Origin: Odiellus spinosus
Taxonomy: Eukaryota; Arthropoda; Arachnida; Opiliones; Phalangiidae
Direction: 5' to 3'
Length of the DNA stretch: 64,000 nucleotides
Assembly: GCA_963920705.1 (NCBI GenBank)
Contig: OY987237.1
Location: 13,980,601 to 14,044,600 of the forward strand
Numbering within the stretch: the stretch's first letter is position 1; each line of letters starts with the position of its first letter. Made by a program: the position numbers and the translations under genes. Below, one piece after another: positions 16,001 to 63,985 of the stretch. The notes under the pieces are model-generated. The model saw nothing but the letters and a program-made list of their open reading frames with translations. It was not told where the DNA came from and ran no database searches.

Positions 16001-19000
16001 GCAAGTTTTGATTAATTATAATATCATAAATATATAATTTAAATGTGAATACATTAATCTTGGAGTTCCTAGCCTTAAATTTAACAAAGTGTACAAGAAA
16101 TTTTGGTGCATACAGTTTAATACAAATTTAGACTTCTTATGATGAGTATTTACTATTAATTGGTTACGATTGAAAGCATTTTTAACCAGTAATTTTAACT
16201 ATATTCAGAAGCCGATGAAACCCTCCTTTGAAGTCTACTACTCCAATGTTCCATATAGCGCTCCTCTCTGTATGATTAAAATTCACAATTTTACGAGTTA
16301 GAAGGGGTCCTACTTCATCCCCCTGTCTACGGAAAATTGGAAATTCTCTCTCTCCACAAACGACGACGTTTCTTGGACGAACTCCAAGGCTGCTAGAGAT
16401 ATTCGCTCGACGAACTCCCGCTCCGAAAATATCTACCGTTAGGAGGCGTACGAATCGCGCTTTTTGAAACTAACCCATACAGAGAGGGGTAGACAAGACC
16501 CGGGAATAATAGACTTCAAAGGAGGGTTTCATCGGCTTCTGCTATATTGTATTGACCCCTCAAAATCAACCATTTAAATATAGAAGAGTACTCACTTTTC
16601 TGGGGCAGTATTCGAGCATAATGTAGACATTTTCCTCGTCTTGGAAGAAATGATGAAAACGAACGACATTTCGATGCTGCAAGCTCTTGTGCAAGTCAAT
16701 CTCGCGAGCAATCTAAATAAAAAAAAAAAAAAAAAAATTAAGTAGGTATGACAGCCAAATAACGCTTTTACAATTCAACAGCGAACAAGTAAGGTATTTG
16801 GTTTTCGTCTCAGCATATAATAATTTATAGCAGTGTAACGTGGTATTTGATGGAAACTATTTTTGTCCAAGATAAGTGTGAACTAGCGAGATCTAACGCG
16901 GATTAATACAAAATGTTAGTTTCTTTCAAAAATCAAAGACTGTGTCGACATTTCTCGCAAAAAACGGTTGTTGCGTATTTCTGCTTAAAAAGTCAAAATG
17001 GAAAATTTTGGGAGATCCAATTAGGTTAAAATGGAATTGTTTGCTTGAAAAGTCGATTTTAAACCATGAATTAAACATGTTTGAACATTCTAAACGATTT
17101 GAAAAAGCGGTGTGAACCTAGCTTAAGGGATGACTTGGCTTTTACGAGCTGAAAATTTCGATTGACTCCTGAAAATATGTTCTCTCTCTAGAAGAACCAA
17201 AAAAAAAAAAAAAAGGTTTAAGCGAACTGATATGGTTATACGCGAATCACTCCAGGGTAGTTGACAAGCCGAATATTTGACGGGTTCTTGACACCATCTG
17301 GATTAAGCTGGATATCGATTTAGGTGTAAAGTGACGTTTATTCCAATCTCAAATACCACTCACTATCCCGTATCTAAAACCATATATATTCAAGGTATAC
17401 GAACAGGCCTACATAAAGCACCATTTTTCTTATAACAAGAGTGAAAAAAGAATTTCAAAGGATCATAGATTTTGATAAAAATCCACCTTTCAAAAGAGAT
17501 TTGTGTAACCTAGAACCACTCTACTTAAATACTTCTACGAGTTATATACTTATGTTTGCAAAATACCTCCTACTAGAAGGTGTAAGAGTGAGAGAATTGA
17601 CGTCATATCTTGCACGAACTCAGACCTTTAATTTTGAATTATAAAATATTTTGATGAACACTGTAAACCATCACAGACCATATTAACTACACCACAGGCG
17701 CCACTGGTCATAATATAACATTTACTACTATAATCTATATGAATCATCTCCGGTAATAAATATAGACACCGTGTATATCACGAAACATGTCCGTACACCA
17801 ATTTTTCGCACCATAATGGATTTCAAGCCGAAATGATCTAATCCCCAGGTTAAACCCCAAAGCTTATTACTTACTACAAATTAGGCTTAACACCCGTTCG
17901 GTTCGCGTGTATCTGAAAAATAAACTGGGTTGTAAAACGGGGAGGTTCGTGCCAATTTAATTAATAGCATTTTTACTGCGCGAACTAAAAACTAGTGAGC
18001 CGTAGCGAGGGAAAAAAGACGCGCCTCCAAGCCCCGATGTATAATGTCATCATTGCTCCATTAAACCAAGATCATCATACACGATATAATAATCAATTAA
18101 CTAAAGGCAAGGGAAGAAGGTTAAGCAATATAGTAGTAGGGTTAGATATACAGAACCGCTAGGTTACAATTGCATTACTTCACTCAACTTGGATAGTTCT
18201 TACATAATGTCGGACACATTAAGATCGTCATCGTTCCATCGATACAATTTTTATTTTTTTTTATTTTTTAAAGGGACTGTGAATTATCCAATCCGAAGGT
18301 ATGACACCAGTAATCGTTCATTAATGGACTAATTAAAGCTTAGATTGCCTTTTTTAAATTTTAGCTTAGCTAAGCCTTATGCGCAGGATTAAAAACTATG
18401 GTCACCTATCTTAATAATTAATATAAAGCTGAATAACAAACTCTGGCGTTCATAAGCTTCCTCTAACGGCAAATAGTGCTGGAAAAGTTGCTAATTTTGA
18501 CCGAATTGTTTGTCGTTAGAGGACTTTTATGAAAACCAGGTTTATCTTTATTTTTATCTATAAAGATAGGTGTGCCCTACTAATCCTAGAAACGTCTGTA
18601 AAAAAAGTGTCTAAATTTTTCTTATTTACCAAGATTTTATCGACTACAACGGTTCATAGACGTTATGAATTATTTTTAACCATGTAACGATAACCTCTCG
18701 ATTATGAGTTTAGAGGAGATATGGCGAACTAATTTTGGACCTAATTTTGAGAAATATAAGTTCCCTTTTCAGTTTCACTTTGCTTTACGATCTAGCAAAC
18801 TATTAACAGCCGCAAAAGGGAGAGAATTACACGCGTCCAGTGTTAAATTGAAGATGATTCAGAAGATAAGAGTGTATAGAGAAGAGACCGTCTCATTTAA
18901 CAGGAGGCGCGATATGGCGGGGGCACCATCTTTCGATCGGATGTCCAAAAAACCTAAATTACCCTTGATTACAACCGGAGGACGGGCAGCGTACCGAATA

Positions 19001-22000
19001 TTACAAGAATGAGTCAGTTTTACGATCAGATAAGGATACAGAGGTCGGATGAACAAGTATTTACAAGCGATCACCAACGCGGTGAGGTAATCTAATATGA
19101 CGTAATCGAGCTCGCGTTACGCTGCTGATAATGAGAAACGGAACCCTGCGGTATCATCAAATAATCATCGACAGTAAATTTAATACAAAAAACTATCATT
19201 AAAGGGAGAATGCAACCTAAAACTTCGATTCCTTATCGTTTAAATGGGCCTAATCCAACACTAAAATTAAACTAGAAATCAATTTAAAACTTACACGAAA
19301 AATAGGCTTAGTTGGATTCATGTTAATTCTGAATTTATTTACATTGAAGAGTCATCGACCAATGAGGAAAGACCCGTCGGTAAGGCGAGATCTCCACGAG
19401 ACTTCCAAGAACATTCCATTGGTCGCTGACTCTTCAACGCGAAGAAATTATTTTCCCGGAAAATTCAAAATTTATTTCTAGTTTAGTATTTGTTTGTAAA
19501 TATTTTTAATGATAAATTTTTTGGATAAAGTGACGCCTGTGTTTCAGCCTTGAAAATGACATAATTCACGTTATAAAACAGGTTTTGGTATGTATATTTA
19601 GGTATTTTCAAGGTTGAAACTCAACATATATTATCTACAAAAATATATCCAAGAGGAAAAACCCATTAGCCCACTGATCGACCATCAACTTATCTGATGT
19701 AACCAGAATCATGGAGTGACAAATATAGACTTACATATTTTTTTGATATAGTTCACACCCCCGCCCCTAACAAAAAGAAAAAAAACTTCGCTGAAAAAAA
19801 GTGATGCTAATGATAGTTAGAAGTTTTTCGGTTACGAAACCTAGTGCGGTTATGACCCAAATGATCGAATATCCACCCACTTGGAGCTAATATATCTCTG
19901 ATCGTCGCGACCACCAAAATATTTCTTTTGTTTGAAATATGATATTTTTCGTTCCATGCATGGCCATTGGCCGCAAACCCCCAAAAAATGGGTATATATA
20001 AACAAAAAAACAATATATATATGGCTATTATATATCTTCGATGTTATCGTAGCTAGAGATAGATTCATTTTGAAATAACAACACATAGAAGCCAAGATTG
20101 GTTTTGAAGAGAGCAGCCATTGGGTGCCTTTTCAACCTGATTCGCCAAAACTATTTGATGTTCTTGACGCAAAAATATATCATCTAAATCTTTCCTATGG
20201 GTATAATGTTTTAGGTTTATACAGAAGCCGATGAAACCCTCCTTTGAAGTCTACTACTCCAATGTTCCATATAGCGCTCCTCTCTGTATGGGTAAAATTC
20301 ACAATTTTTCGAGTTAGAAGGGGTCCTACTTCATCCCCCCTGTCTACGGAAAATTGGAAATTCTCTCTCTCCACAAACGACGACGTTTTTTGGACGAACT
20401 CCGAGGCTGCTAGAGATATTCGCTCGACGAGCTCCCGCTCAGAAAACATCTACCGTTAGGAGGCGTACGAATCGCGCCTTTTGAGAATAACCCATACAGA
20501 GAGGGGTAGACAAGACCCGGGAGTAACAGACTTCAAAGGAGGGTTTCATCGGCTTCTGGTTTATATGATATTTATCTATGGGCCTAAAAATAAACTATAT
20601 ATAGAGCTATATTTTAAAAACTACTACTTTTTCTTATGTTATAGTTTATACGGACGTATCCCTACGCCGTATCTTAAAAAACGTGATGACATTGAAAGTA
20701 GTTTGTTTTTTCGGGTAATTTTTCTTAAAGGTAGAATTTAGTAGAGTGCTGTCCCAATTCACTCTAGAAACTAAAGTTGTAAATTTATGGGGTATAGTTT
20801 AGTTTTGATCTTAAAAAACTATACGGGTATATACTGTCAACTTTATGTAAAGCCCCACTAATACTAAAACTGTGTGGTTTTTTCTTGAATTTGCACGTAG
20901 ATGGAATTTAAACTGTACGAATTTTGTATATATATTATTTTCTTAAATATTCTTAAGTGGAAAGTTTGAAAAAACTCTTGGGTCGATAAGATTTTATTTA
21001 GTTTTAAAATAGATCTAAACAATATGGAGATAAGATAAAACTTGAAAGACTGAAGACCTGGTGGCCAGGTAAGTGGTTTTGTTACGTATATTTGCCACTG
21101 TTTGCCGTTAGAGGACGCTTATGAACGGTATAATCAGAGGTATATAATAACCCCCTTCGGGGGGAAGTATGAAAGCCCCTTTACTACCAATGCTAAAAAT
21201 CACGAACAACAAGAGCCCGCTGCTGACTATCTAGGCCACTAGCTCGCGCTGGACTTCTCAATGTCGCTACTCTAGTAAATGGTCTTTGTATAAACAAGAC
21301 GGCTCGATTTGTGTTTAGAACTTCCTGTCTCGGGAGTCAGGCTGTCTGTTAAAATGGAGTCGAAGGTTGACTTCGGCTCGCGAGTTCCGGAAGTGCGCGT
21401 AGGGAAAATTTAGTGAGGTTCAAAATGGTGTAACTATTTTTTTGGGAGTAAAGCGGTGTGTCGATCCGCCGCGATTTACGCCGGGCACTCGTTGTTCGTC
21501 GATTTTGCCTACCTTTCATACTTCCCCCCGAAGGGTGTTATTATATACCTCTGGTATAGTTCATCATTATCTATTAAAATAGGGGCCCCTTAATTGTTAA
21601 AAATTCTAGATTTAATATACAACATTGTAGTTTCAATGTTGAATAGTTTTAATAATATTTCCTTGCGCTACTAATATTCAGCATCATTTTGAAGAATATC
21701 ATAAAGAACTATCATTTTTAAATCTTATAATGCTCTTAAATAGAATAGTATCGAATACAACAAAAGTGGCTAAAGTTTTGCGTTCGAAATATATATTTAA
21801 ATTAGCATAAGTAACGCGAAAAAGCGTTAAAATAAGAAGGCAAACTAACGGGTTAAAATATAGAAAACTTTCGCGCTGTTTTACATAAAGCAATGAAAAT
21901 TTCAATGTCTCTCCCATTTGCAAAGCAAAAAAAATGGAGAAATAAGACAACTATTTGACGAATTTCACGCAATGAAGTTACTCGAAATATGACGAGTGAA

Positions 22001-25000
22001 ATTCTTTACCAGGATATCTTTTTCTTATTATTTCAAATATGTTAAACAATCTGTAAATGTCGAGTTTTGGGGAGGAGAAATCCCTTAGCGGAAAAAAAAA
22101 TGAAGCTTGGATGCTTTTTTTAGCACCGCGGTTTGTTGGAATACAAAATTTGAATTGCAAATAAGTCGCGGTTGCCTGAAGATGAGCTTCCTAAGAATAC
22201 AAGATAAGAATACAACACATTCAAAGTAGGGATAGTCATTAATATCGATTAGAAATAGATTGGAGTTAGGTTTGAGTCTGGTACACACTCCGCGTGAGTC
22301 AAAGATTTCAATAGGTTTGAAACTAAAATTTACAACCAGCTGTCGTTAACTAATATATACGTAAAATTTAAATCTAGATAGGAAAGCATTAAAAATTCAG
22401 AGTGGAATATCAAATACGATCTAATCCATGTATAAATTTCATTAAATAAAAATAAACACTTCATTTTATTTAGATTTACACAGTATATGAGATTTGGGGC
22501 AGCCTAGCCTAGTTCTAGTCGAAATCTCTTACTCGAATGAATTCTAATACGTACGCGAAGTAACTAGGAATGAATAAAAAACGGGGAGAAACTACATGAA
22601 AATAATCTTCAATTGTATAAACTGTATTCTACATTCCTCCGCGAATATCAAAACTAATGGTATTAATGGTAATAGAGGCACATTACATCCCTTCTGAGTA
22701 TCGAACCGAGACGTGGACACGTTAGATGGGTTATTTCGGTTTAATAGCAAAAATAGCAGAAGCCAGGCGAAAAATATAACCAAAAGCCAATCAATTTATT
22801 CCTTAAAAGTGAACAACGCCCTGTAGTTTAAAATTATTAGAAATGGTCCAGGTAAACGTACAGGCAGATTCTGATTCAAGACACTCTAGCGGCCACAGTC
22901 GCCGTGTAAATAGTGAAATCGGAAGCGCCACTCTTTGGAGAAATTCCGGAGCTGGGGGTAACAATATAGCCAAGCGCGGCCCGCCTAAATTTCGTCTCTC
23001 TCTCCCGTCTAAAAATATCGAGGAAGAGTCCAAATCACTCGAGCCAGAGAGGGGTGATGACTTTTTTTGCCTATTTTTAAGTGATAGGCTATGAAGTAAA
23101 ACTCGGCCTTTGTTGGTAGTATCAGAAGCCGATGAAACCCTCCTTTGAAGTCTACTACTCTAAAGTTCCATATAGCGCGCCTCTCTGTATGGGTAAAATT
23201 CACAATTTTACGAGATCGGAGGGGTCCTACTTCATACCCCCTGTCTACGGAAAATTGGAAATTCTCTCTCTCCACAAACGACGACGTTTTTTTGACGAAC
23301 TCCGAGGCTGCTAGAGATATTCGCTCGACGAACTCCCGCTCCGAAAATATCTACCGTTAGGAGGCGTACGAATCGCGCTTTTTGAAACTAACCCATACAG
23401 AGAGGGGTAGACAAGACCAGGGAGTAATAGACTTCAAAGGAGGGTTTCATCGGCTTCTGGTAGTATTGATATAAGGGGCGTTGCTTACTTTAAATGTAAT
23501 AAAGTGATACACTTTTGATATTACGAACAGAAGTATTTTTCCGGGAGAACGGAAATAAGAGTTATAAGGAATTCCGGTGGTGACACCGTGACGAATTTTA
23601 TTTCATGCAAAACTAAACATCCCTTCAATGCGTCGGAGACTCGAGGGAACTAAAATATTAGCGTGGCTTCTTCGGAAGTAGATTCGCTGCCGCATGGTTC
23701 CACTCAATTGTTACACCCTAACACGGTCTACAGACTAACGCCAGCAAAGATAGTTCGAGGTCTATATCAGTCGCGTGGGGAGATAGGGATCGTTAAGATA
23801 CCAATTAGAAAGAGACACGCAAAGACTTCGAGTCAAGCAATAAATTAGGAACAATTCTTGTTGAATTTTTAAGTGTATTCAGTCTTCGCTAATAATTGAA
23901 CACATTTTTTTTTATTTTTAGTTAATTTTAACGGGACTAAACTTTATTACCATGATGATTAACTTTAAATGTTGTTAATTAATTTACGAAACTGTTAGTT
24001 CATGATTAAAGGGAAGCTAAAATTGTAACAGCTTTTTAATTTATTTTCAGATTCTGCACGTAAAATTATGAAATGAATATTCGGGCCTGCAATCATATTT
24101 CAATCTTAAACAGCGCTATCGCGATTGAGTTTCTTAACCACGTCGCCAGAGGGCGAAAGCTTCGCCGTCAGAATATATATAAAGCTAAATCTCTGGTGTA
24201 GGGTACATCTTTTGTTCGTTTGATTTAACACTTAACTAACATTCAAGCTTAACCAAAAACTTCTAGAAATTAAACACCAAAAACGCGTCGAACAATTTTT
24301 AAAAAATCATGAATAAATATTCTTATTTATTTTCCCTTTATAAACTATCTTTATTAACCATGAAAAAAAAAGCTCCAAGATAAGCTACTGAACTCCAGAT
24401 AATTAATAAAAATCTCTTTATTTAATCCCACTTGGTTTAAAATCCAAACCCACTCTTTTTCAAAGTGACAAATAGGAGCACCTGCAATCAACTTTCTTTT
24501 AAAAAGATAAAAACAGCCTCAAAGAATCGCGACTTTCAAAACTCTCAAACATTTATCTTCAAGAAGCTATATTAACTCCCTGAAGACAAAGAAAGTAGGA
24601 GTAAACTACTAAAAACAAAAGGAAAAAATCCTAGCCAAAATATTTTCTTTGTAGAAAGATTTTAAACTAGGAAAACCCAAAAAAAAAGCTAGATAAAACG
24701 TTTCAAGTGGATTTAGGGTTACGTTTTTCGGCATTCAAAATAATCCTATCCGATATCGCCTTCAGAAGGGGTCCCCTTCATAGCATTATATAGGCACTTA
24801 CAGTCTTATATTGGGCAAAATTATCCATTGGCGCCGATAAAGGGAAGGTGTGAATGTATTTAACGTTCACAAAATTCCGTACGCATATTTAACACCGATT
24901 TATAGAAATATTTATAATTTGTTGAATTTAGGGATATAGTAGAGAAAATTAGTTACGGTCATTTTTGGATTTTTTTCTCGATTTCTATGAGTGGCGGAAT

Positions 25001-26539
25001 AATCTTTAACGAGTGGCTCGTGTCAATTTTATTATTTTAAATTAATCTAGGGAATGTCTTCTTTCTAATAATGCTATCGGTTTATGCCTAGGTGCTAGTA
25101 GAAAAAGGTTACAACCATTTTGAGCTAGGGGTCATTTTTGGATTTTTTTCTCGATTTCTATGAGTGACGGAATAATCTTTAACGAGTGGCTCGTGTCAAT
25201 TTTATTATTTTAAATTAATCTAGGGAATGTCTTCTTTCTAATAATGCTATCGGTTTATGCCTAGGCTCTAGTAGAGAAAAGTTACGACCATTTTAATATA
25301 GGGGTCATTTTTGGATTTTTTCTCGATTTCTAGGAGTGGCGGAATAATCTTTAACGAGTGGCTCATGTCAATTTTATTATTTTAAATTAATCTAGGGAAT
25401 GTCTTCTTTCTAATAATGCTATCGGTTTATGCCTAGGTGCTAGTAGAGAAAAGTTACGGCCATTTTAAGATATTTAGATTTTTGCTCAATTTCCAACAGT
25501 GGCTGAATAATCTTTAACGAGTGATTCGTGTCAATTATATTATTTTAAATAAATTTAAATTAATTTGTTGGTAAGCCCTGAAATATTTTATGTTACATTT
25601 GCCCTTTAAGTTAGGACTGTTTTTAGCTTGTAATATTTATATACAAGCATTTTATTCATCGGAGCGAAGTAAAACAGAAGAGCGTCGCCTTTAGAATTGA
25701 AAACTTTTGTCCAATTTTATTTCTATCTTTTTTTTTTTTCTTATCGAATTTTAAAATAAATAACGAAATCCCGTTCTGATCGATCGAAAATTCGACACAT
25801 TCAATGAAATATTATTTCTCATAAATTCTCAACGATAGTTTCTCTCTAGAGATCTTCATAAAATGTATGATATGAAAAATAGCTTAAAATCGTCTTGAAT
25901 ATTTTAAAGATTTTTTTTTTTTTTTTATCAAATCCCAATGGAAAATTTAAATTATGTAGATTAGTTTGAAAACCTGTATCCCTTGTTATGTTATTTCCGC
26001 CGTATTTAGGATTTTTTGCGGGGTTTAAAGGCTTATATTTCTATATATAGAACATCTTGAAATAAATAATAAGATTTGCTTTCTGTACAGAATAGAAATT
26101 TTAAAGAAAAAGCCAAAAATACATATCAAATATGATAAAAATAGTTCAACCAAACTTATCTTGAACATGAGTATTCATATATAACTTTTAAAATTAAAGG
26201 GTTTCTTAGATTATTTTTTAGAAAATATGTCGTGAAATAATTATGCATTATTAAAAGTTATCTTTTTTAAATTGTAAAAGTATGTGCTCTCTAAGAAAAA
26301 AACTACTTGTGGATTTCAAGCACTTCTGTCGTGATAACGTAAGCACTTCTGTCGTGATAACATAAGTTTATAATTTATGGCGATACTAATTCAGGGTAAT
26401 AACGTGTTATAAAGTAGTGAAAATAAATTACCTTTTCCTTTTGCACTGGTTTGGTTATTCTTGATTTTGGAATGATTTTTCCAGCATAAACTTTGTTAGT
26501 AGTTAAGTCTGTAAGTTCGTGAACGTGAGCGAATCCACC
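9849..26539 (-). CDS. PLK1: Polo-like kinase (PLK1/polo type), ten exons, 5' exon missing
   Basis: Serine/threonine kinase of the Polo family. Family members act in mitotic entry, at centrosomes and kinetochores and in cytokinesis, binding phosphorylated partners through their polo boxes. Ten exons join in frame with GT..AG introns: 26432-26539, 16596-16712, 12203-12420, 11652-12132, 11445-11562, 11287-11361, 10842-11004, 10644-10773, 10463-10579 and 9849-10055, giving 577 codons. Seen: end of the glycine loop (GGFAH), catalytic Lys (VYAGK, about residue 21), HRDLKLGN (about 114), DFG (133), activation-loop Thr in VTVCGTPNY (149), APEV, polo box 1 (from about 386) and polo box 2. The two pincer residues of polo box 2 (His and Lys in KDHTKIVL, about 516 and 518) are conserved; the residue equivalent to human Trp414 is Phe. 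Human PLK1 is 603 residues, so about 40-60 N-terminal residues are missing. No earlier exon was found in the window. Confidence 0.93.
10463..10579 (-). CDS. PLK1: Polo kinase exon (polo box 2 start)
   Basis: 39 codons between acceptor TTTATAG and donor GTAAGT, phase 0 on both sides. [20 protein letters not shown] matches human RTWFRTRSAIILHLSNGSVQ. Confidence 0.93.
10644..10773 (-). CDS. PLK1: Polo kinase exon (end of polo box 1, linker)
   Basis: 130 bases: one base completing Ser, then 43 codons, ending GAG before [23 protein letters not shown] matches human KKITLLKYFRNYMSEHL. Confidence 0.92.
10842..11004 (-). CDS. PLK1: Polo kinase exon (polo box 1 core)
   Basis: 163 bases between acceptor TTTATCAG and donor [25 protein letters not shown] and [15 protein letters not shown] match polo box 1. 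The residue just before VLKW, Trp414 in human PLK1, is Phe (codon TTC). Confidence 0.94.
11058..11257. mobile_element. TTAA-flanked MITE inside Polo intron
   Basis: A 200-bp element with ends AGGGAGCCCGAAG and, inverted, AGGGAGCCTGAAG, flanked by TTAA on both sides (11054-11057 and 11258-11261). It makes up most of the 282-nt intron between exons 10842-11004 and 11287-11361. It is a short relative of family E (same AGGGAG tip). TTAA duplication is typical of piggyBac and Kolobok transposases; I cannot choose between them. Confidence 0.75.
11287..11361 (-). CDS. PLK1: Polo kinase exon (inter-domain linker)
   Basis: 75 bases between acceptor CATTATAG and donor GTAAGT. Reads [18 protein letters not shown] then IDSMPDG, with split codons at both ends that match the neighbouring exons. 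Confidence 0.88.
11445..11562 (-). CDS. PLK1: Polo kinase exon (linker helix)
   Basis: 118 bases between acceptor CGCGAAG and donor GTACGT. Reads [17 protein letters not shown], then [17 protein letters not shown], in the position of the human linker segment SDMLQQLHSV. Confidence 0.85.
11652..12132 (-). CDS. PLK1: Polo kinase exon (activation segment and C-lobe)
   Basis: 481 bases between acceptor CCCTTTAG and donor [25 protein letters not shown] opens the activation segment and its first Thr aligns with human Thr210. Then come [19 protein letters not shown] and the C-lobe helices ([17 protein letters not shown]). Confidence 0.95.
12203..12420 (-). CDS. PLK1: Polo kinase exon (catalytic loop, DFG)
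   Basis: 218 bases between acceptor TTATTTACAG and donor [39 protein letters not shown] and [11 protein letters not shown] are near-identical in pattern to PLK1. All catalytic residues are present. Confidence 0.96.
12421..16198 (-). other. first part of 4.2-kb Polo intron, no element recognised
   Basis: AT-rich intronic sequence between the exon at 12203 and the family A element at 16206. A segment at about 14575-14700 resembles one at about 23470-23580, so both may be decayed copies of an unnamed repeat. No coding exon was found. Confidence 0.45.
16206..16541 (+). mobile_element. family A MITE copy 1 (7-bp TSD)
   Basis: A 336-bp non-autonomous DNA element. Termini are CAGAAGCCGATGAAACC and its inverse, with about 32 bases of perfect terminal inverted repeat and a further internal inverted pair (CTCTCTGTATGGGT). 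It is flanked by ctatatt at 16199-16205 and 16542-16548. No protein is encoded: the short open frames shared by copies reflect copy similarity. It sits 54 bases from the Polo exon at 16596. Marker types (see findings): left L1, right R2. Confidence 0.9.
16596..16712 (-). CDS. PLK1: Polo kinase exon (alpha-C helix, hinge)
   Basis: 39 codons between acceptor TTTATTTAG and donor [25 protein letters not shown] and [13 protein letters not shown] match human MEISIHRSLAHQHVVGF and the hinge LELCRRR. Phase 0 at both ends. Confidence 0.93.
16713..19198 (-). other. Polo 9.9/9.7-kb intron, left part
   Basis: AT-rich. A 102-codon plus-strand open frame at 18704-19012 ([18 protein letters not shown]...) is the longest one here outside a repeat. 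It matches nothing I recognise and may be chance. No other feature was found. Confidence 0.4.
19203..19515. mobile_element. family E TTAA foldback, partial or decayed copy
   Basis: The left end AGGGAGAATGCAACCTAA follows TTAA at 19199-19202. The characteristic family E interior follows (CTTATCGTTTAAATGGGCC, AATAGGCTTAG and, on the other arm, ATTTATTTCTAGTTTAG). The right tip is not recognisable, so the outer end is an estimate. Confidence 0.6.
19516..20214. other. intronic sequence, nothing recognised
   Basis: AT-rich sequence of the Polo intron with no feature I can support. Confidence 0.35.
20222..20558 (+). mobile_element. family A MITE copy 2
   Basis: 337 bp with both termini intact. 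7-bp duplication gtttata at 20215-20221 and 20559-20565. Marker types L1 and R1. Confidence 0.9.
21135..21553 (+). mobile_element. family D MITE copy 1 (7-bp TSD, UUCG hairpin ends)
   Basis: About 419 bp. Termini are CAGAGGTATATAATAACCC and its inverse, with about 40 bases of inverted repeat. Each end contains CCCCCTTCGGGGG, a GC stem closed by a TTCG loop. The interior is GC-richer than its surroundings (CTCGCGCTGGAC, GATCCGCCGCGATTTACGCC). Flanks gtataat (21128-21134) and gtatagt (21554-21560) agree at 6 of 7 bases. No coding capacity. Confidence 0.87.
21561..23115. other. intronic sequence with a GC-richer patch
   Basis: Mostly AT-rich. A GC-richer patch at about 22840-23060 holds overlapping short open frames on both strands (for example the plus frame at 22843-23094) that match nothing I know. 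I do not call a gene. Confidence 0.35.
23123..23459 (+). mobile_element. family A MITE copy 3
   Basis: 337 bp with intact termini. 7-bp duplication gtagtat at 23116-23122 and 23460-23466. Marker types L2 and R2. Confidence 0.9.
23467..24957. other. intronic sequence, one decayed repeat
   Basis: About 23470-23580 resembles about 14575-14700. The rest is AT-rich without a recognised feature. Confidence 0.35.
24958..25560 (+). repeat. 173-bp tandem repeat, about 3.5 units
   Basis: Units start at 24958, 25131 and 25304 (each GTCATTTTTGGATTTTT), spaced exactly 173 bases. A fourth, diverged and shortened unit starts near 25460. Shared words include GGCGGAATAATCTTTAACG and GGTTTATGCCTAGG. Full units differ by only a few bases, so amplification or homogenisation was fairly recent. 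It lies within the Polo intron. Confidence 0.9.
25561..26431. other. intronic sequence next to Polo exon
   Basis: AT-rich. A 23-bp direct duplication (GCACTTCTGTCGTGATAAC) occurs at about 26318-26362. Nothing else was recognised. Confidence 0.4.
26432..26539 (-). CDS. PLK1: Polo kinase exon (glycine loop end, catalytic Lys)
   Basis: 36 codons between acceptor TATTTTCTTAG and donor GTAATT, phase 0 at both ends. [20 protein letters not shown] then [10 protein letters not shown] matches human [20 protein letters not shown] and KIVPKSLLLK. The preceding exon must supply the GK before GGFA and the N-terminus. Confidence 0.93.
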
Positions 26540-27553: not shown

Positions 27554-27890
27554 CAGAAGCCAATGAAACCCTCCTTTGAAGTCTACTACTCTAATGTTCC
27601 ATATAGCGCGCCTCTCTGTATGGGTAAAATTCCCAATTTTACGAGATCGGAGGGGTCCTACTTCATCCCCCCTGTCTACGGAAAATTGGAAATTCTCTCT
27701 CTCCACAAACGACGACGTTTTTTGGACGAACTCCGAGGCTGCTAGAGATATTCACTCGACGAGCTCCCGCTCCGAAAACATCGACCGTTAGGAGGCGTAC
27801 GAATCGCGCCTTTTGAGAATAACCCATACAGAGAGGGGTAGACAAGACCCGGGAGTAATAGACTTCAAAGGAGGGTTTCATCAGCTTCTG
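27554..27890 (+). mobile_element. family A MITE copy 4, without matching TSD
   Basis: 337 bp with both termini recognisable. The flanks (ataaaac and gaatggt) do not match, unlike all ten other copies. It is the only copy combining marker types L2 and R1, which fits an origin by recombination between two elements. Confidence 0.88.
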
Positions 27891-28841: not shown

Positions 28842-29230
28842 CAGAAGTATGAAAGGTAGGCAAAATCGACGAACAACGAGTGCCCGGCGTAAATCGCGGC
28901 GGATCGACACACCGCTTTACTCCCAAAAAATAGTTACATAATTTTGAACCTCACTAAATTTCCCTACGCACACTTCCGGAACTCGCGAGCTGAAGTCAAC
29001 CTTCGACTCCATTTTAACAGACAGCCTGACTCCCGAGACAGGAAGTTCTAAACACAAATCGAGCCGTCTTGTTTATACAAAGACCATTTACTAGAGTAGC
29101 GACATTGAGAAGTCCAGCGCGAGCTAGTGGCCTAGATAGTCAGCAGCGGGCTCTTGTTGTTCGTGATTTTTAGCATTGATAGTATAGGGGCTTTCATACT
29201 TCCCCCCGAAGGGGGTATTATATACCTCTG
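28842..29230 (-). mobile_element. family D MITE copy 2, one tip internally deleted
   Basis: About 389 bp, inverted relative to copy 1. The left end reads CAGAAGTATGAAAGG, lacking about 28 bases that include the TTCG hairpin. The right end is complete. An exact 7-bp duplication gtagagt flanks it (28835-28841 and 29231-29237). Confidence 0.87.
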
Positions 29231-31534: not shown

Positions 31535-32046
31535 ATATCTTTGTTCTAATCAGAAGCCGATGAAACCCTCCTTTGAAGTCTACTACTCCAATGTTCCATA
31601 TAGCGCTCCTCTCTGTATGGGTAAAATTCACAATTTTACGAGTTAGAAGGGGTCCTACTTCATCCCCCTGTCTACGGAAAATTGGAAATTCTCTCTCTCC
31701 ACAAACGACGACGTTTTTTGGACGAACTCCGAGGCTGCTAGAGATATTCGCTCGACGAGCTCCCGCTCCGAAAACATCTACCGTTAGGAGGCGTACGAAT
31801 CGCGCCTTTTGAGAATAACCCATACAGAGAGGGCTAGACAAGACCCGGGAGTAATAGACTTCAAAGGAGGGTTTCATCGGCTTCTGTTCTAATCTATACA
31901 ACTGACACGGTCAGCGTCAAATCTTTTCCGCGGATAATGATTGTAATTTCCTCACTTTTTAAAATATCTTAAAATTCCCTGACTTTTTTGGTTCATTTTC
32001 AAATTCCCTGACTTTTCCCAGTTTTCCCTGACCTGTGGCAACCCTG
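31535..32046. mobile_element. CAGGG-ended element with family A copy 5 nested in it
   Basis: From about 31535 the sequence parallels the element at 35286-35616, interrupted by family A copy 5, and ends CTGTGGCAACCCTG at 32046. The left end is not identifiable. The interior is rich in TTCCCTGAC words. Confidence 0.6.
31551..31886 (+). mobile_element. family A MITE copy 5, nested
   Basis: 336 bp, marker types L1 and R1. 7-bp duplication ttctaat at 31544-31550 and 31887-31893. The unoccupied equivalent of this site exists at 35446-35452 with a single ttctaat. Confidence 0.92.
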
Positions 32047-33772: not shown

Positions 33773-34052
33773 CAAGGAGGATCAGAGAAGGAGAGGAAAT
33801 GTGGGGCTGCGTTGAGTTAGAGAGAGAAGAGCCAACCTCCCACTCGGGTGGAAAGGGGGGATAGGAAATTCTCGAGGTAAACTGTTGTCACGTGGTCGCT
33901 AGCTAGCGCGTCTCATAAAGGATTCGTTTTACCCACGCGACAACATTTTACCACGAAACGTCTCTACCCCGTTCTCCCAGAGTGGGAGTTTAGGCCGACG
34001 CAGTAGGAACCGCGCCGTCCCCACATTTCCTCTCCTTCTCTGATCCTCCTTG
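33773..34052 (+). mobile_element. family C MITE copy 1 (7-bp TSD)
   Basis: 280 bp with about 33 bases of perfect inverted repeat: CAAGGAGGATCAGAGAAGG and its inverse at the right end. The interior is conserved among copies (GGTCGCTAGCTAGCGCG). 7-bp duplication tattcac at 33766-33772 and 34053-34059. No coding capacity. Confidence 0.92.
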
Positions 34053-34807: not shown

Positions 34808-35145
34808 CAGAAGTAGATGAAACCTTCCTTTGAAGTCTACTACTCTAATGTTCGATATAGCTCCCCTCTCTGTATGGGTAAATTCCCAATTTTACGAGAT
34901 CGGAGGGGTCCTACTTCGTACCCCCCTGTCTACGGAAAATTGGAAATTCTCTCTCTCCACAAACGACGACGTTTTTTTTGACGAACTCCGAGGCTGCTAG
35001 AGATATTCGCTCGACGAACTCCCGCTCCGAAAATATCTACCGTTAGGAGGCGTACGAATCGCGCTTTTTGAAACTAACCCATACAGAGAGGGGTAGACAA
35101 GACCCGGGAGTAATAGACTTCAAAGGAGGGTTTCATCGGCTTCTG
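34808..35145 (+). mobile_element. family A MITE copy 6
   Basis: 338 bp. The left terminus carries changes (CAGAAGTAGATGAAACC). 7-bp duplication atattaa at 34801-34807 and 35146-35152. Marker types L2 and R2. Confidence 0.9.
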
Positions 35146-39399: not shown

Positions 39400-39743
39400 A
39401 TATCTAAGACTGCTAAGCCTAAATGTAGGTCATATCTAAGACTGCTAAGCCTAAATGTAGGTCATATCTAAGACTGCTAAGCCTAAATGTAGGTCATATC
39501 TAAGACTGCTAAGCCTAAATGTAGGTCATATCTAAGACTGCTAAGCCTAAATGTAGGTCATATCTAAGACTGCTAAGCCTAAATGTAGGTCATATCTAAG
39601 ACTGCTAAGCTTAAATAAAGGTCATATCTAAGACTGCTAAGCCAAAATGTAGGTCATATCTAAGACTGCTAAGCCAAAATGTAGGTCATATCTAAGACTG
39701 CTAAGCCTAAATAAAGGTCATATCTAAGACTGCTAAGCCTAAA
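39400..39743 (+). repeat. 32-bp satellite array, about 11 units
   Basis: The unit begins ATATCTAAGACTGCTAAGCC, then TAAATGTAGGTC, at a strict 32-base period from 39400 to 39720. Units near the middle-right vary at two positions (AAAATG or AAATAAAG). The array ends where family C copy 2 inserted. Confidence 0.93.
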
Positions 39744-39750
39744 TCACAAT

Positions 39751-41235: not shown

Positions 41236-41679
41236 ATTTGGCCCAATTATTCCCAGCTTTTCCCCGATTCTCTGGCCCAATTATTTCAAACTTTTCCCCT
41301 GAACCTCTGGTCCAATTATTCCAAACTTTTCCCAGACATTTTGGCCCAATTCCGAACTTTTCCCAGACATTTTGGCCCAATTCCAAACTTTTCCCAGACA
41401 TTTTGGCCCAATTCCAAACTTTTCCCAGACATTTTGGCCCAATTCCAAACTTTTCCCAGGCATTTTGGCCCAATTCCAAACTTTTCCCAGACATTTTGGC
41501 CCAATTCCAAACTTTTCCCAGACATTTTGGCCCAATTCCAAACTTTTCCCAGACATTTTGGCCCAAATCCAAACTTTTCCCGAACCTTAACCCAATTAAC
41601 TTTATAATTCCACGATATTTTGGACAAATTCTAATTTTCCCTGACCCTTCCCGGTTTTATCTGACCTGTTTCAACCCTG
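41236..41679. repeat. 31-bp tandem array within a CAGGG-type element
   Basis: Eight near-perfect 31-base units (AACTTTTCCCAGACATTTT, then GGCCCAATTCC) at about 41320-41575 follow two or three longer diverged units. The segment ends TTTCAACCCTG at 41679, as in the CAGGG-ended elements. Because 31 is not a multiple of 3, every frame stays open on both strands, giving several overlapping frames of 70-160 codons that are not genes. Confidence 0.9.
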
Positions 41680-44436: not shown

Positions 44437-44869
44437 AGGGAGGATGCAACCTAACAACAAGTGATTTTTTATCGATTCCTTATTGTTTAAATAGGCCTAA
44501 TCCACTATTTAAAAAATTTACAAACAAATATTAAACTAGAAATAAATTTAAAACTTACAATGAAAATAGGCTTAGCGGGATTCATGGAGGTCCTGTTTTC
44601 CTCGCGTGTAGTGTCTAGCGACCAATCGCGCGCGACGTAAGTCTCGTAGAGATCTCGCTTGAACGACGGGCCTTTGCTCATTGGTTGCTAGACCTTACAC
44701 GGAGGCAATTCAGGATCTCCATGAATCCCGCTAAGCCTATTTTCAGGGTAAGTTTTAAATTTATTTCTAGTTTAATATTTGTATTGTAAACTTTTTATCG
44801 ATGGATTAGGCCTATTTAAACGATAAGGAATCGATAAAAAATCACTTGTAATTAGGTTGCATTCTCCCT
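44437..44869. mobile_element. family E TTAA foldback, complete copy
   Basis: 433 bp between TTAA at 44433-44436 and 44870-44873, tips AGGGAGGATGCAACC and, inverted, AGGGAGAATGCAACC. The arms are inverted copies for most of their length (about 170 bases each). The centre carries the palindromic words GGTCTAGCGACC-like and TTGGTCGCTAGACC-like. No protein is encoded. Confidence 0.88.
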
Positions 44870-44873
44870 TTAA

Positions 44874-46043
44874 AGGGAAAAGGGAGAATGCAACCTAATT
44901 TGCATTTTTTATATTGCAAAATATGTCTAATCCACCAGTAGAAAAATTAAGAACAATTATTTTGCTAGAATTAAATTTAAATAGGCTGTAGTAAAATTAA
45001 AATTCGAAGGGCGTGCCTATTTCAAAAAATATTTGGCGAAATCTAGCGCAATATTTAATTTATGGGTGTTCAAAATTTAATTATATGTTTAATTTTAACG
45101 ACCGGAAGACCTTAATAAATTTTATACATTTTTAATCCAGAATGACATCATATATATCAAAGTATAATTTAACTAGTGATTGTTAAAGAGGTTGGTTAAG
45201 GGAATATGTAGCTGCAGTAACGGTGCAAACATACATTGCTCATCAAAATAAAGTATGGTGAAATTGCGGATGTGAACTTAAATTTCAACGTGGGAAACCT
45301 CGATTTCAAAGAAAAATGTAATATTGTAAAATATTCATAAACTAAGAAACTTACGTGATAACTATATTTCAAAAAACGTTAGAAACTCGAATAAATATGA
45401 AATAAAGGGTTTTTAAAACGCAAACTCTGAAAGTTTTCCTCCCAAAATATACGGATAAGAACGAAAAACAGACGTTTCTTTGAAGAAAGCCGTATTTTCG
45501 TTATATACGAATGACATTAATACGATTTTTAGAATACTAGGCCTAACATAAAAAAATATATAGTTGCTACAGTAAACATTTTTTCAACGATATATAAACT
45601 TATAAATCTTCAAAACTACGCACGTTTGAACTTATATGGGAAAATAAATACGAAATTCTTCTATCATACACTAGCACAGGACGGGAACTAAAAAAAATGA
45701 CGAACTGAATTTATAGAAACTTATTTTGCCGACCAAAAAATAAACAAACATAGCTAGCAATAATAAAATAGATTCAAAATGGTTTAGACAATATTGAAGT
45801 CAACATGCAAGTTCAAAATCCTCAAAACACTTGTATACAAACGGAATCAACTTGAACTAAAGTTTTAATTTGCATAACTGTTGAACTTTAGTATTATTAA
45901 AAGATTACAAAACATCAAACTATTTTAATAGAATGTTTAAGTTCTGGACAAAATACGCTGAGCGCTCTTGAATTTCTGAAGATATTCTAACAAATAGAAT
46001 CTGGACATGAAAAGCATTTACGCGGCAAAAGTATTTAAAGAAT
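44874..46043. other. family E fragment, then no feature
   Basis: Starting at about 44884, AGGGAGAATGCAACCTAA repeats the family E tip immediately beside the complete copy, then diverges. The rest is AT-rich with no feature. Confidence 0.45.
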
Positions 46044-46050: not shown

Positions 46051-46468
46051 CAGAGGTATATAATAACCCCCTTCGGGGGGATGTATGAAAGCCCCTATAC
46101 TACCAATGCTAAAAATCACGAACAACAAGAGCCCGTTGCTGACTATCTAGGCCACTAGCTCGCGCTGGACTTCTCAATGTCGCTACTCTAGTAAATGGTC
46201 TTTGTATAAACAAGACGGCTCGATTTGTGTTTAGAACTTCCTGTCTCGGGAGTCGGGCTGTCTGTTAAAATGGAGTCGAAGGTTGACTTCGGCTCGCGAG
46301 TTCCGGAAGTGCGCGTAGGGAAAATTTAGTGAGGTTCAAAATGGTGTAACTATTTTTTGGGAGTAAAGCGGTGTGTCGATCCGTCGCGATTTACGCCGGG
46401 CACTCGTTGTTCGTCGATTTTGCCTACCTTTCATACTTCCCCCCGAAGGGGGTTATTATATACCTCTG
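46051..46468 (+). mobile_element. family D MITE copy 3
   Basis: 418 bp with both termini and both TTCG hairpins. Exact 7-bp duplication gtataac at 46044-46050 and 46469-46475. Confidence 0.92.
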
Positions 46469-48726: not shown

Positions 48727-49408
48727 AGGGAGGCTGAAGAGAAGTAGTTATATTTATCGATTTAACCAAGAAGGATCAGATAAGGAGAGGAAAAGTGGGG
48801 CTGCGTTGAGTTAGAGAGAGAAGAGCCAACCTCCCACTCGGGTGGAAAGGGGGGATAGGAAATTCTCGAGGTAAACTGTTGTCACGTGGTCGCTAGCTAG
48901 CGCGTCTCATAAAGGATTCGTTTTACCCACGTGACAACAATTTACCACGAAGCATCTCTACCCCCGTCTGGCCCCCTGTTCTCCCAGAGTGGGAGTTTAG
49001 GCCGACGCAGTAGGAGCCGCGCCGTTCCCACTTTTCCTCTCCTTATCTGATCCTTCTTGATTTAATAAACAAACAAATCTACTAAAAAATAAACCAGTTT
49101 GCTTAGAGTATGAATCATCAGTTTCTGAATTGCGCAAAAAAATTGAGAAAGATTTGCATGAAATGCACTCTGACCGATCAAAAAAGAGATCCAGCGACTA
49201 GGTGTCGGGGTTAAATATAGTTACTTTCACTCGCACCATCGAAGGTGTCGTGGTAAATTTTGTTAAACATTTTTTGATTGGTTGAACGGACTGTTTTTAG
49301 ATCGCTGCCGAAATCAGAATGTTTCAAGTTTTTTTGCACACAAACAGGGCTTAACTATTTTTAATGGGCAAAAATGCGATGAGAATTGTTATCCTGATTA
49401 CCTTCCCT
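48727..49408. mobile_element. possible TTAA element split by family C copy 3
   Basis: TTAA then AGGGAGGCTGAAGAG at 48723, and TTCCCT then TTAA at 49403-49412. Without the nested copy it would be about 380 bp. The two tips match only weakly beyond AGGGA, so the pairing is tentative. Confidence 0.4.
48767..49059 (+). mobile_element. family C MITE copy 3
   Basis: 293 bp, the longest copy, with a short internal duplication of CCCCCGT-type sequence near 48960. Ends CAAGAAGGATCAGATAAGG and inverse: both tips share the same substitutions relative to copies 1 and 2. Flanks atttaac (48760-48766) and atttaat (49060-49066) agree at 6 of 7. Confidence 0.88.
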
Positions 49409-50427: not shown

Positions 50428-50764
50428 CAGAAGCCGATGAAACCCTCCTTTGAAGTCTATTACTCCCGGGTCTTGTCTACCCCTCTCTGTATGGGTTATT
50501 CTCAAAAGGCGCGATTAGTACGCCTCCTAACGGTAGATGTTTTCGGAGCGGGAGTTCGTCGAGCGAATATCTCTAGCAGCCTCGGAGTTCGTCCAAAAAA
50601 CGTCGTCGTTTGTGGAGAGAGAGAATTTCCAATTTTCCGTAGACAGGGCGGATGAAGTAGGACCCCTTCTAACTCGTAAAATTGGGAATTTTACCCATAC
50701 AGAGAGGAGCGCTATATGGAAAATTGGAGTAGTAGACTTCAAAGGAGGGTTTCATCGGCTTCTG
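50428..50764 (-). mobile_element. family A MITE copy 8 (inverted)
   Basis: 337 bp in the opposite orientation to copies 1-7. Exact 7-bp duplication gattaac at 50421-50427 and 50765-50771. Marker types L1 and R1. Confidence 0.91.
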
Positions 50765-52338: not shown

Positions 52339-54134
52339 CTAATCTACAAGCCTATCGTTAATTATGCCTTAAAACCAAATTAAATCATCATTTGAAACAA
52401 AATATCTATAGATATTAATATTAAAAAAACTAATTTCAAAATTAACTCATTTCTAAACTCATTTTCATTTGGTTAATTGTCACAACCTCACTTTAAATAA
52501 TTGTAATCTATAAATTTCAACCCTTTTGCAAATTGCAATTGTTCAATTCCTAATCGCATAAATTGAGTATATATTATAATTGTCCGGTATCTTTTAACGT
52601 CTGATACTGAAGCTTACATTATTAAACCATTAATTTACCCATATCTTTAGACACTAATTAATAATAGACTAGTTAATAACAATAGCTTATCGCGTTTCCG
52701 ACAAATCACAGAGTTTATTCTAATCGTTTTGATGGAAAGTCCTTTAATTTACGAATACGTACGCGTATACGAAGCAAAAAGGCAATAGAATCTGCAAACA
52801 AGGCGCCTTATCACTTGGGTTAAATTTTTAATCTATCGCGAGTTCCCTATACATAATGTTAAAATATATAACAATAGCTTTATATACGTGGCAATCCCGA
52901 GATTATACAAGCATCTGTAGTACATCTGGATGAATTCCCATCCACGTTAAGTTTTGGCCCATCGCGTATTTACTAAAATCTGGAGGATTTCAGATTTAAT
53001 AAATCAGAATGGATCGATTGGGTTCGAGTGATGAGAATATATTCAAACCCTCCCACATTCACTCGCCAACCCATATTCTGTATAATAGATTTCAAAGGAG
53101 AAGTGTTATCAAAAATTTTGTTTAATTTGTATATATCCTGAATGTATGTAAACATACGAGTAAAATGTAAAGTAACTAAAAAGAAAGCAGTTTGTCTAAA
53201 GAGATTAAGCTAGAATTAGTTTAATTTAGATTTAATCGCGTTTTGTTGCAATACTAAGAATTAAACGAAAAGGTCCTAACTTTTAAGTTCAGTATACAAA
53301 TTATATTAGGATTAATTTTCCCATTGAATTTTTTTAAATAGAGATCGTTCTAAATTTGGATAATTAGCTTTTAGTGTCAAGGTTGCGTTCAGCGACGTGT
53401 ACCGAAGATACCACCACCATATAAAATACGTAAACGGGTAGCCTACCGGACACTTTGTTTGCGCGGCTGTATGTAGTCTAACGGCCAATTTTCACTTTGT
53501 AATAATCTGGGTCTCAGTGATCGCATTCAAAGCTAGTCTAACTTAATCATTTGGACGTCGATCATTAAAATCGATCAGGTGGACAAATTCTACGATATTA
53601 AACTTGAATTTCTGCGCTTTGTATATTCACTAATGATCAGTTTCTAATCGATTATTTAATCGCGAGATTTGTCCTTTATTTAGCAAATGCCACGGAGTTC
53701 TAGCACAAAAGAGCTTTGATCCATTAATGCGTATAGGAAAGCTCAGAGAGAAAAGGGTACTACATCAGCTGTTACGACGCCTTTTGCTCCAGAAAATTTA
53801 ATTTAGGGTTCAAAAGTGGAGGGAGGACATAAACAGCCTATTGGGGTTGTGTCCCCAAGTGGAAAATATCAACGCGAAAAGACCTGGCAGCTTAATTCCT
53901 ATCGCGAGCCAATATTCAATCGAATTCTTTGTTATTAAATTTCGAAGATGGTGCTGCGCTTTCCAGGGATACTTGAAATGCTTTCTTATAGACATATCTC
54001 AAAGGTTTGGCCACACTTATTATAAAATTCAGAATTTAACTAAACTGAGTCAGTACGCGCGAATCTAAAGAAGAGTACTTTACATAATCTAAGTTCACTT
54101 CTACAATTTTTTCACCTTTCCCCATATGTAACCC
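52339..54134. other. no feature recognised
   Basis: AT-rich, with a slightly GC-richer stretch near 53380-53480. No gene can be supported. Confidence 0.35.
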
Positions 54135-54138
54135 TTAA

Positions 54139-54572
54139 AGGGAGAATGCAACCTAATTACAAGTGATTTTTTATCGATTCCTTATCGTTTAAATAGGCCT
54201 AATCCACCGATAAAAAGTTTACAATACAAATATTAAACTAGAAATAAATTTAAAACTTACCCTGAAAATAGGCTTAGCGGGATTCATGGAGATCCTGAAT
54301 TGCCCCCGTGTAAGGTCTAGCGACCAATGAGCGAAGGCCCGTCGTTCACGCGAGATCTCCACGAGACTTACGTCGCGCGCGATTGGTCGCTAGACCTTAC
54401 ACGCGAGGAAATCAGGAGCTCCATGAATCCCACTAAGCCTATTTTCAGGGTAAGTTTTAAATTTATTTCTAGTTTAATATTTGTTTGTAAATTTTTTAAA
54501 TAGTGGATTAGGCCTATTTAAACAATAAGGAATCGATAAAAAAATCACTTGTTGTTAGGTTGCATCCTCCCT
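54139..54572. mobile_element. family E TTAA foldback, complete copy
   Basis: 434 bp between TTAA at 54135-54138 and 54573-54576, very similar to 44437-44869. The arms carry CTTACCCTGAAAATAGG and, inverted on the right, CCTATTTTCAGGGTAAG, a back-to-back splice-site-like word. Confidence 0.9.
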
Positions 54573-54576
54573 TTAA

Positions 54577-58105: not shown

Positions 58106-58442
58106 CAGAAGCCGATGAAACCCTCCTTTGAAGTCTATTACTCCCTGGTCTTGTCTACCCCTCTCTGTATGGGTTATTCTCAAAAGGCGCGATTCGTACG
58201 CCTCCTAACGGTAGATGTTTTCGGAGCGGGAGTTCGTCGAGCGAATATCTCTAGCAGCCTTGGAGTTCGTCCAAAAAACGTCGTCGTTTGTGGAGAGTGA
58301 GAATTTCCAATTTTGCGTAGACAGGGGGGATGAAGTAGGACCCCTTCTATCTCGTAAAATTGGGAATTTTACCCATACAGAGAGGAGCGCTATATGGAAC
58401 ATTGGAGTAGTAGACTTCAAAGGAGGGTTTCATCGGCTTCTG
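58106..58442 (-). mobile_element. family A MITE copy 9 (inverted)
   Basis: 337 bp. Exact 7-bp duplication aaattac at 58099-58105 and 58443-58449. The left marker is intermediate between L1 and L2; the right marker is R1. Confidence 0.91.
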
Positions 58443-59671: not shown

Positions 59672-60004
59672 CAGAAGCCGATGAAACCCTCCTTTGAAGT
59701 CTACTACTCCAATGTTCGATATAGCGCTCCTCTCTGTATGGGTAAAATTCACAATTTTACGAGCTAGAAGGGGTCCTACTTCATCCCCCCTGTCTACGGA
59801 AAATTGGAAATTCTCTCTCCACAAACGACGACGTTTTTGGACGAACTCCGAGGCTGCTAGAGATATTCGCTCGACGAACTCCCGCTCCGAAAATATCTAC
59901 CGTTAGGAGGCGTACGAATCGCGCTTTTTGAAACTAACCCATACAGAGAGGGGTAGACAAGACCAGGAGTAATAGACTTCAAAGGAGGGTTTCATCGGCT
60001 TCTG
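59672..60004 (+). mobile_element. family A MITE copy 10
   Basis: 333 bp, slightly shortened. Exact 7-bp duplication gtacaac at 59665-59671 and 60005-60011. Left marker close to L1, right marker R2. Confidence 0.91.
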
Positions 60005-60011
60005 GTACAAC

Positions 60012-60832: not shown

Positions 60833-60864
<32 letters not shown>

Positions 60865-61022: not shown

Positions 61023-61441
61023 CAGAGGTATATAATAACCCCCTTCGGGGGGGAAGTATGAAAGGTATGCAAAATCGACGAACAACGAGTGCCCGGCGTA
61101 AATCGCGGCGGATCGACACACCGCTTTACTCCCAAAAAATAGTTACACCATTTTGAACCTCGCTAAATTTTCCCTACGCACACTTCCGGAACTCGCGAGC
61201 CGAAGTCAACCTTCGACTCCATTTTAACAGACAGCCTGACTCCCGAGACAGGAAGTTCTAAACACAAATCGAGTCGTCTTGTTTATACAAAGACCATTTA
61301 CTAGAGTAGCGACAATGAGAAGTCCAGCGCGAGCTAGTGGCCTAGATAGTCAGCAGCGGGCTCTCGTTGTTCGTGATTTTTAGCATTGGTAGTATAGGGG
61401 CTTTCATACTTCCCACCGAAGGGGGTTATTATATACCTCTG
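61023..61441 (-). mobile_element. family D MITE copy 4 (inverted), without matching TSD
   Basis: 419 bp with both termini. The flanks gtccaag and attaaac do not match, unlike copies 2 and 3. Confidence 0.88.
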
Positions 61442-62330: not shown

Positions 62331-62337
62331 ATTTAGA

Positions 62338-62674
62338 CAGAAGCCGATGAAACCCTCCTTTGAAGTCTATTACTCCCGGGTCTTGTCTACCCCTCTCTGT
62401 ATGGGTTATTCTCAAAAGGCGCGATTCGTACGCCTCCTAACGATGGATGTTTTCGGAGCGGGAGCTCGTCGAGCGAATATCTCTAGCAGCCTTGGAGTTC
62501 GTCCAAAAAGCGTCGTCGTTTGTGGAGAGAGAGAATTTCCAATTTTCCGTAGACAGGGGGGAAGAAGTAGGACCCCTTCTAACTCGTAAAATTGGGAATT
62601 TTACCCATACAGAGAGGAGCGCTATATGGAACATTGGAGTAGTAGACTTCAAAGGAGGGTTTCATCGGCTTCTG
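62338..62674 (-). mobile_element. family A MITE copy 11 (inverted)
   Basis: 337 bp. Exact 7-bp duplication atttaga at 62331-62337 and 62675-62681. Marker types L1 and R1. Confidence 0.91.
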
Positions 62675-62681
62675 ATTTAGA

Positions 62682-63560: not shown

Positions 63561-63567
63561 ATATGGC

Positions 63568-63985
63568 CAGAGGTATATAATAACCCCCTTCGGGGGGAAG
63601 TATGAAAGCCCCTATACTACCAATGCTAAAAATCACGAACAACAAGAGCCCGCTGCTGACTATCTAGGCCACTAGCTCGCGCTGGACTTCTCAATGTCGC
63701 TACTCTAGTAAATGGTCTTTGTATAAACAAGACGGCTCGATTTGTGTTTAGAACTTCCTGTCTCGGGAGTCAGGCTGTCTGATAAAATGGAGTCGAAGGT
63801 TGACTTCAGCTCGCGAGTTCCGGAAGTGCGCGTAGGGAAATTTTAGTGAGGTTCAAAATGGTGTAACTATTTTTTGGGAATAAAGCGGTGTGTCGATCCG
63901 CCGCGATTTACGCCGGGCACTCGTTGTTCGTCGATTTTGCCTACCTTTCATACTTCCCCCCGAAGGGGGTTATTATATACCTTTG
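63568..63985 (+). mobile_element. family D MITE copy 5
   Basis: 418 bp, right tip CCTTTG instead of CCTCTG. Flanks atatggc (63561-63567) and atttggc (63986-63992) agree at 6 of 7. Confidence 0.87.

Follow-up and report, generated by a model that had tools for sequence, protein, structure and literature searches.

Three families of miniature inverted-repeat transposable elements (MITEs), designated A, C and D, lie in a 64,000-bp stretch of the Odiellus spinosus genome (G000:C15:13980601-14044600; hereafter the window), within an assembly of 443 Mb in 286 contigs. They are genuine MITEs: inside the window and outside it, copies end in CA..TG and are flanked by exact 7-bp target-site duplications. 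The analysis presented below indicates that all three are probably non-autonomous P-superfamily elements whose movement depends on a clade of P-type transposases that cut with a 7-bp stagger.

MITE families with 7-bp duplications

The window copies are as follows; for family A, the strand sign gives the orientation relative to the arm carrying AATGTTCC.

16206-16541, plus, MITE A, duplication CTATATT
20222-20558, plus, MITE A, duplication GTTTATA
23123-23459, plus, MITE A, duplication GTAGTAT
27554-27890, plus, MITE A, without duplication (1/7)
31551-31886, plus, MITE A, duplication TTCTAAT
34808-35145, plus, MITE A, duplication ATATTAA
48157-48493, plus, MITE A, duplication ATAATAT
50428-50764, minus, MITE A, duplication GATTAAC
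58106-58442, minus, MITE A, duplication AAATTAC
59672-60004, plus, MITE A, duplication GTACAAC
62338-62674, minus, MITE A, duplication ATTTAGA
33773-34052, plus, MITE C, duplication TATTCAC
39751-40031, plus, MITE C, duplication TCACAAT
48767-49059, plus, MITE C with tip variant CAAGAAGG, flanks 6/7 (ATTTAAC/ATTTAAT)
21135-21553, plus, MITE D, flanks 6/7 (GTATAAT/GTATAGT)
28842-29230, minus, MITE D with left tip partly lost, duplication GTAGAGT
46051-46468, plus, MITE D, duplication GTATAAC
61023-61441, minus, MITE D, without duplication (3/7)
63568-63985, plus, MITE D, flanks 6/7 (ATATGGC/ATTTGGC)

An exact duplication flanks ten of the eleven A copies, all but the one at 27554-27890, and the A copies are 95-99% identical to their own consensus. 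Two of the three C copies have exact duplications, the flanks of the third (48767-49059) agreeing at six of seven positions. Family D comprises five copies: two with exact duplications (46051-46468 and 28842-29230, the latter with a damaged left tip between flanks GTAGAGT/GTAGAGT), two with six of seven matches and one, at 61023-61441, whose flanks agree at three of seven positions. This fifth copy had been left out of the tally in the original prediction, whose 7-bp duplications and CA..TG tips were otherwise all confirmed. Two random positions of the window share a common 7-mer with a probability of 0.000185 (200,000 draws).

A further 20 two-ended A copies were collected from elsewhere in the genome, 14 with an exact duplication and six with six of seven matches. 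Flanks were tabulated for two-ended copies, one-ended copies being excluded. The table has 49 rows, 34 of them from family A; three A rows, in which tips of different or overlapping copies had been paired, were dropped. Exact 7-bp duplications were present in 24 of 31 A copies, 3 of 4 C copies and 2 of 5 D copies, plus the one tip-damaged D copy. When lengths from 3 to 10 were tested, exact flank matches occurred at 7 only, in all 49 rows. Another dominant duplication length beyond the window, named in the original prediction as a result that would speak against it, did not emerge: exact matches were all 7 bp in the copies examined. In these stretches, CA..TG tips and exact 7-bp duplications are also found in family F (CAAGAATCC; 4 of 4 copies), family E (CATAGAGAC; 1 of 1) and family G (CATAGAGGG; 1 of 1).

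Allowing at most one mismatch, the genome contains 11,398 + 11,468 = 22,866 tips of A, 4,743 + 4,734 = 9,477 of C and 2,272 + 2,244 = 4,516 of D. Together the three families amount to about 6.1 Mb, or 1.4% of the 443 Mb (half the tip counts multiplied by unit length, truncated copies counted). The exact A tip is absent from IMG/VR contigs and, as a string, was not found in the literature searched.

The same data contain hAT-like MITEs (tips CAGGGACGG) that serve as a control: their duplications are 8 bp long, GATGAAAC at locus L087 and CTCATAAA at locus L081. Assignment of A, C and D to the hAT superfamily was rejected on this ground, their exact duplications being 7 bp versus 8 bp in the hAT-like elements. 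Elements of this hAT-like kind with tips CAGGGACG occupy L087:105-343 and L081:305-804; CTCATAAA belongs to the first of two copies in L081.

P-superfamily transposons in the same genome

The RNase H domain of P elements (PF21787) has at least 150 matches in the genome (386 candidates, 150 scored). A first scan of thirty 3.4-kb P loci (L009-L038) yielded no end pair, whether by exact tips or by CA..TG tips with a 7-bp duplication, and comparison of the MITEs with P loci L009-L042 gave no match. Ends were also sought in longer stretches at 20 P loci, as terminal inverted repeats with a flanking duplication. Both were found at nine of these: six families have 7-bp duplications, and three copies, from two families, have 8-bp duplications. 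One 8-bp family is represented by L039 and L040 (p039/p040; two copies, 97.8% identical) and the other by L041 (p041). No ends were identified by terminal repeat and duplication at the remaining 11 loci (L042, f626, f018, f031, f034, L036 and L078-L082), one of which, L081, was afterwards recognized through its homology to C (see below). The 7-bp families are as follows.

f856, 5,670 bp, duplication GTCTGTC
f672, 6,182 bp, duplication ATAGAGC
f649, 5,443 bp, duplication CTCCAAT
f028, 4,609 bp, duplication GTTAAAC
f024, C1:507640-512220 (in L053/L024/L054), 4,581 bp, duplication GTTTATA
f801, C1:7167009-7170785 (in L045/L037), 3,777 bp, duplication TTTGAAG

RNaseH_N and GTP-binding domains are found in all six, and a THAP domain was seen in the four whose THAP exons were analyzed (f856, f672, f649 and f801). 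The PF12017 helix-turn-helix domain is strong in both 8-bp families; among the 7-bp families it appears in f028 only, below threshold. Terminal repeats of the MITEs and of 7-bp elements with readable ends are about 31-51 bp long. The terminal repeats of f024 and f801, which are related families, start with CGTTGCC and CGGTGCC, so that these elements end in CG..CG, not CA..TG.

A tree built from 26 transposase fragments is split, with a support of 100, into two sides. One holds the six 7-bp elements, the source element of C described below and seven sequences of unread duplication length; the other, with twelve sequences, includes both 8-bp families as well as Drosophila P (6p5a), the only known P transposase placed in the trees, which falls outside the 7-bp clade. 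The six 7-bp elements also form one clade, with support 100, in a tree of 21 sequences. To the extent covered by this comparison (six families versus two and Drosophila P), the length of the duplication tracks ancestry. The D(2)H motif and the first two catalytic acids could be aligned in the C source as in each of the six 7-bp elements.

Insertion sites were scored at the six fixed positions of the motif GTWNWAC. Scores were 3.71 for A (24 sites), 4.27 for the other MITEs (11 sites) and 4.0 for the six 7-bp P elements, against a background of 2.28; none of 20,000 resamplings reached either MITE score, and p was 0.0001 for the 7-bp P elements. In this test, which is partly circular, the sites of the MITEs and of the 7-bp P elements share a target motif, mostly AT-rich and GTWNWAC-like. 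One site within the A tips, ATGAAAC, took insertions of C (L084, exact), E (L072, exact) and A (L085, 6/7).

Source of family C

Comparison of the P loci with the MITEs led to the source of family C, in L081; L094 added 116 more bases. The joined element spans 5,857 bp (G000:C2:22245336-22251192; positions 137 to 5993 of the joined stretch in L081 coordinates). The element agrees with the left half of C over 157 bp at its left end (135 identical, ~86%) and with the right half over 128 bp at its right end (112 identical, ~87%), in the same order and orientation as in the MITE. Between these ends lie a 121-amino acid open reading frame (ORF) with a THAP domain (L081:862-1224; PF05485, 1.6e-10) and a 786-amino acid ORF with RNaseH_N (PF21787, 2.9e-24) and GTP-binding (GBD; PF21788, 1.6e-14) domains. 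The sole PDB match up to an E-value of 0.01 is the P transposase 6p5a (9.8e-08), and the protein falls inside the 7-bp transposase clade. The leader of the element holds two hAT-like MITEs, the first with an 8-bp duplication. The homology of both halves of C to the ends of an element with P-type ORFs identifies C, at the sequence level, as an internal-deletion derivative of a P-type element, in which approximately the first 160 bp are joined to the last 135 bp. Family C itself bears the marks of the superfamily, having CA..TG tips and an exact 7-bp duplication in three of four copies.

A second case is provided by f856. Its exact tip bounds four 5,670-bp elements and pairs of 654 and 1,219 bp, and, in the first 100 entries of the list of 145 + 124 tips (at most two mismatches), a one-base variant of the tip bounds five pairs of 219-356 bp. 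The 257-bp f856 derivative in L093 has an exact 7-bp duplication, TATAGAG, and is 70% (left) and 84% (right) identical to the f856 ends. The f672 tip bounds seven pairs of 6.1-6.2 kb and two of 226-227 bp, as measured from tip positions.

Search for sources of families A and D

Subtractive patterns, consisting of a tip followed by bases missing from the MITEs, were aimed at long elements. They gave 15 matches for A, nine for D, none for C, two for A beyond its terminal repeat and 48 for a relaxed A pattern. The C source was missed because the method is blind to sources that share more than their first bases with the MITE. On visual inspection, all A and D matches lay more than 10 kb from any listed P match, the nearest at about 17 kb. 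The 15 A loci and eight stretches from other A and D patterns were read and consisted of MITE variants, nested insertions and fragments. Two longer A-type elements, of 938 and 1,367 bp (in L068 and L072), were rejected as A sources, having no match to P proteins; the A end adjoining f024, in L054, is that of a truncated A copy. The search for longer coding elements bearing the MITE ends, proposed along with the original prediction, thus yielded a source with P-type domains for C, and none for A or D.

Because no source with end homology was found, A and D are placed in the P superfamily by likeness: from their 7-bp duplications, their CA..TG tips and their P-like target motif we infer that they belong to it.

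Mechanism and alternative explanations

In the mechanism we envisage, a P-type transposase with THAP, RNase H-like and GTP-binding domains would make staggered cuts of 7 bp in its target, for the most part at AT-rich sites resembling GTWNWAC; MITEs would arise via internal deletion and spread using the transposase of intact relatives. Families A and D may have arisen like C, from other lineages of the 7-bp clade, and, as tips and interiors differ, each family would be moved by its own source lineage, whose transposase presumably recognizes the MITE ends and may be active today.

A number of observations weigh against this scheme. The sequenced copy of the C source has a rearranged left tip and mismatched flanks (GATTAGA/CTTTAAA), which make its own duplication length unreadable. 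Its third catalytic acid (E) lies beyond the ORF ends and is therefore unaligned, both D residues and D(2)H being aligned; among the six 7-bp elements, the third acid aligns in f024 and f801 only, and the downstream ORFs of f856, f672 and f649 matched no Pfam family. The motif test is circular to the extent that the motif was set with the sites and the consensus of Galileo already in view. Neither the compared P loci nor the subtractive patterns, which catch early-diverging sources only, yielded a coding element with A or D ends. Finally, 63 tests of MITE terminal repeats against those of P elements with known ends disclosed, for A, C and D, no likeness beyond chance (lowest p: 0.016 for E, 0.064 for D, with an 8-bp element, 0.17 for C and 0.11 for the C variant).

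The mismatched flanks of L081 would favor a different history, in which this locus is not the source of C but a P-type element inserted mid-way into a C copy. This is very improbable: the two inner borders of the C-like parts carry neither P-type terminal repeats nor a common 7-mer, the C-like sequence continues into the leader, left of the THAP start, and the C halves overlap by a few bases only. Moreover, a source lineage would be expected to show about this identity (~86-87%), and the arrangement recurs in f856 and its derivative. The lack of a coding element with A or D ends, together with terminal repeats unlike those of P elements with known ends, would fit a scheme in which C is P-type but A, D or both are moved by an unrelated, possibly undescribed, 7-bp transposase. 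We consider this unlikely. A and D match C and the 7-bp P elements in duplication length and target preference, and in tip dinucleotides too; the ATGAAAC site of the A tips was hit by C, E and A insertions alike; and, since ends were examined at about 20 of the 150 listed P matches, the lack of a source is weak evidence. An undescribed transposase, which the original prediction had entertained, is not needed, because the genome is rich in P elements and 7-bp duplications are on record for the P superfamily: the 7-bp elements found here carry P transposase domains, and 1360/Hoppel and Galileo already make duplications of this length. The prediction was correct in calling a 7-bp duplication uncommon; the length points, however, to a known group.

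The common stagger, tips and target motif of A, C and D could be taken as an argument for a single transposase moving all three, and an argument of this kind has been made for Galileo, Newton and Kepler, although the terminal 40 bp of these elements are almost identical (PMC2775673). In the present case a single transposase is highly improbable: A, C and D have dissimilar terminal repeats, and where the source of a MITE is known, for C and for the f856 derivative, the lineages are different. The common mobilizing system suggested by the original prediction thus stands in part, as one kind of non-autonomous family with one stagger, a common target preference and 7-bp transposases in one clade, but hardly as a single transposase for all three. 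The converse possibility raised with it, that the families belong to different known autonomous elements, also applies in part, since the C source is the L081 lineage and the f856 MITE comes from another, both inside one known superfamily.

We retain P-type transposases of the 7-bp clade as the probable source of mobility. Whether stagger length in the P superfamily is set by transposase ancestry, so that a 7-bp clade split into many MITE-spawning lineages while sister lineages kept 8 bp and the ends of f024 and f801 turned to CG..CG, is a proposition to which we give even chances.

Other features of the window and genome

Tandem arrays with 32-bp and 31-bp units occupy window positions 39336-39815 and 41287-41658, respectively, and a 173-bp unit is repeated in tandem at 24957-25557, its last copy more diverged. 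Positions 44465-44876 and 54132-54543 form an inverted pair of 412-bp repeats, 97% complementary and near-palindromic, for which the census showed no 7-bp duplication. The minus strand carries two long reading frames with BTB domains and a fragment of a protein kinase (1569-3539, 4808-7051 and 11511-12167). A 30-base TTAGG repeat has 9,597 matches in the genome (overlaps counted); contig C1 has an array close to its end and short interstitial runs in many places. This fits an arthropod, TTAGG being an arthropod-type telomere repeat.

Comparison with known systems

A very abundant set of MITEs can thus be placed in a known superfamily, C by homology and A and D by inference. It resembles a large burst of transposons of an already known kind, not a new kind; the novelty lies in host, families and scale, and in the separation of 7-bp from 8-bp lineages within one genome. 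With both types of P transposase in one genome and the split well supported, the determinant of the stagger could be sought through sequence and structure comparison. In a literature search that drew mostly on records short of full texts, no P-type MITEs with 7-bp duplications were recognized outside flies.

The P element moves by cut-and-paste, using a transposase with a THAP domain, a GTP-binding domain and an RNase H fold (PMC7776569). MITEs of Anopheles gambiae are reported to keep the 5' and 3' parts of P elements and to have 8-bp duplications (PMC1562414). P-type transposase domains and end-retaining MITEs are thus common to those systems and the present one; the P element and the Anopheles MITEs differ in their 8-bp duplications, which resemble those of p039/p040 and p041 here. 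Closer parallels come from other Drosophila members of the superfamily. In D. melanogaster, the modal duplication is given as 8 bp (GTCCGGAC) for P and as 7 bp (GTTNAAC) for 1360 (PMC3276498); the latter fits the GTWNWAC-like sites described here, 1360/Hoppel being likened by duplication and motif only. Galileo makes 7-bp duplications at GTANTAC, and its non-coding relatives Newton and Kepler are regarded as being moved by one transposase (PMC4168063, PMC2775673). This likeness too is one of duplication and motif only, and Galileo has long, internally repetitive terminal repeats, unlike the ~31-51 bp found here. The trait of the 1360/Galileo subgroup, a 7-bp duplication at GTTNAAC- or GTANTAC-like sites, is nevertheless present in the Odiellus elements.

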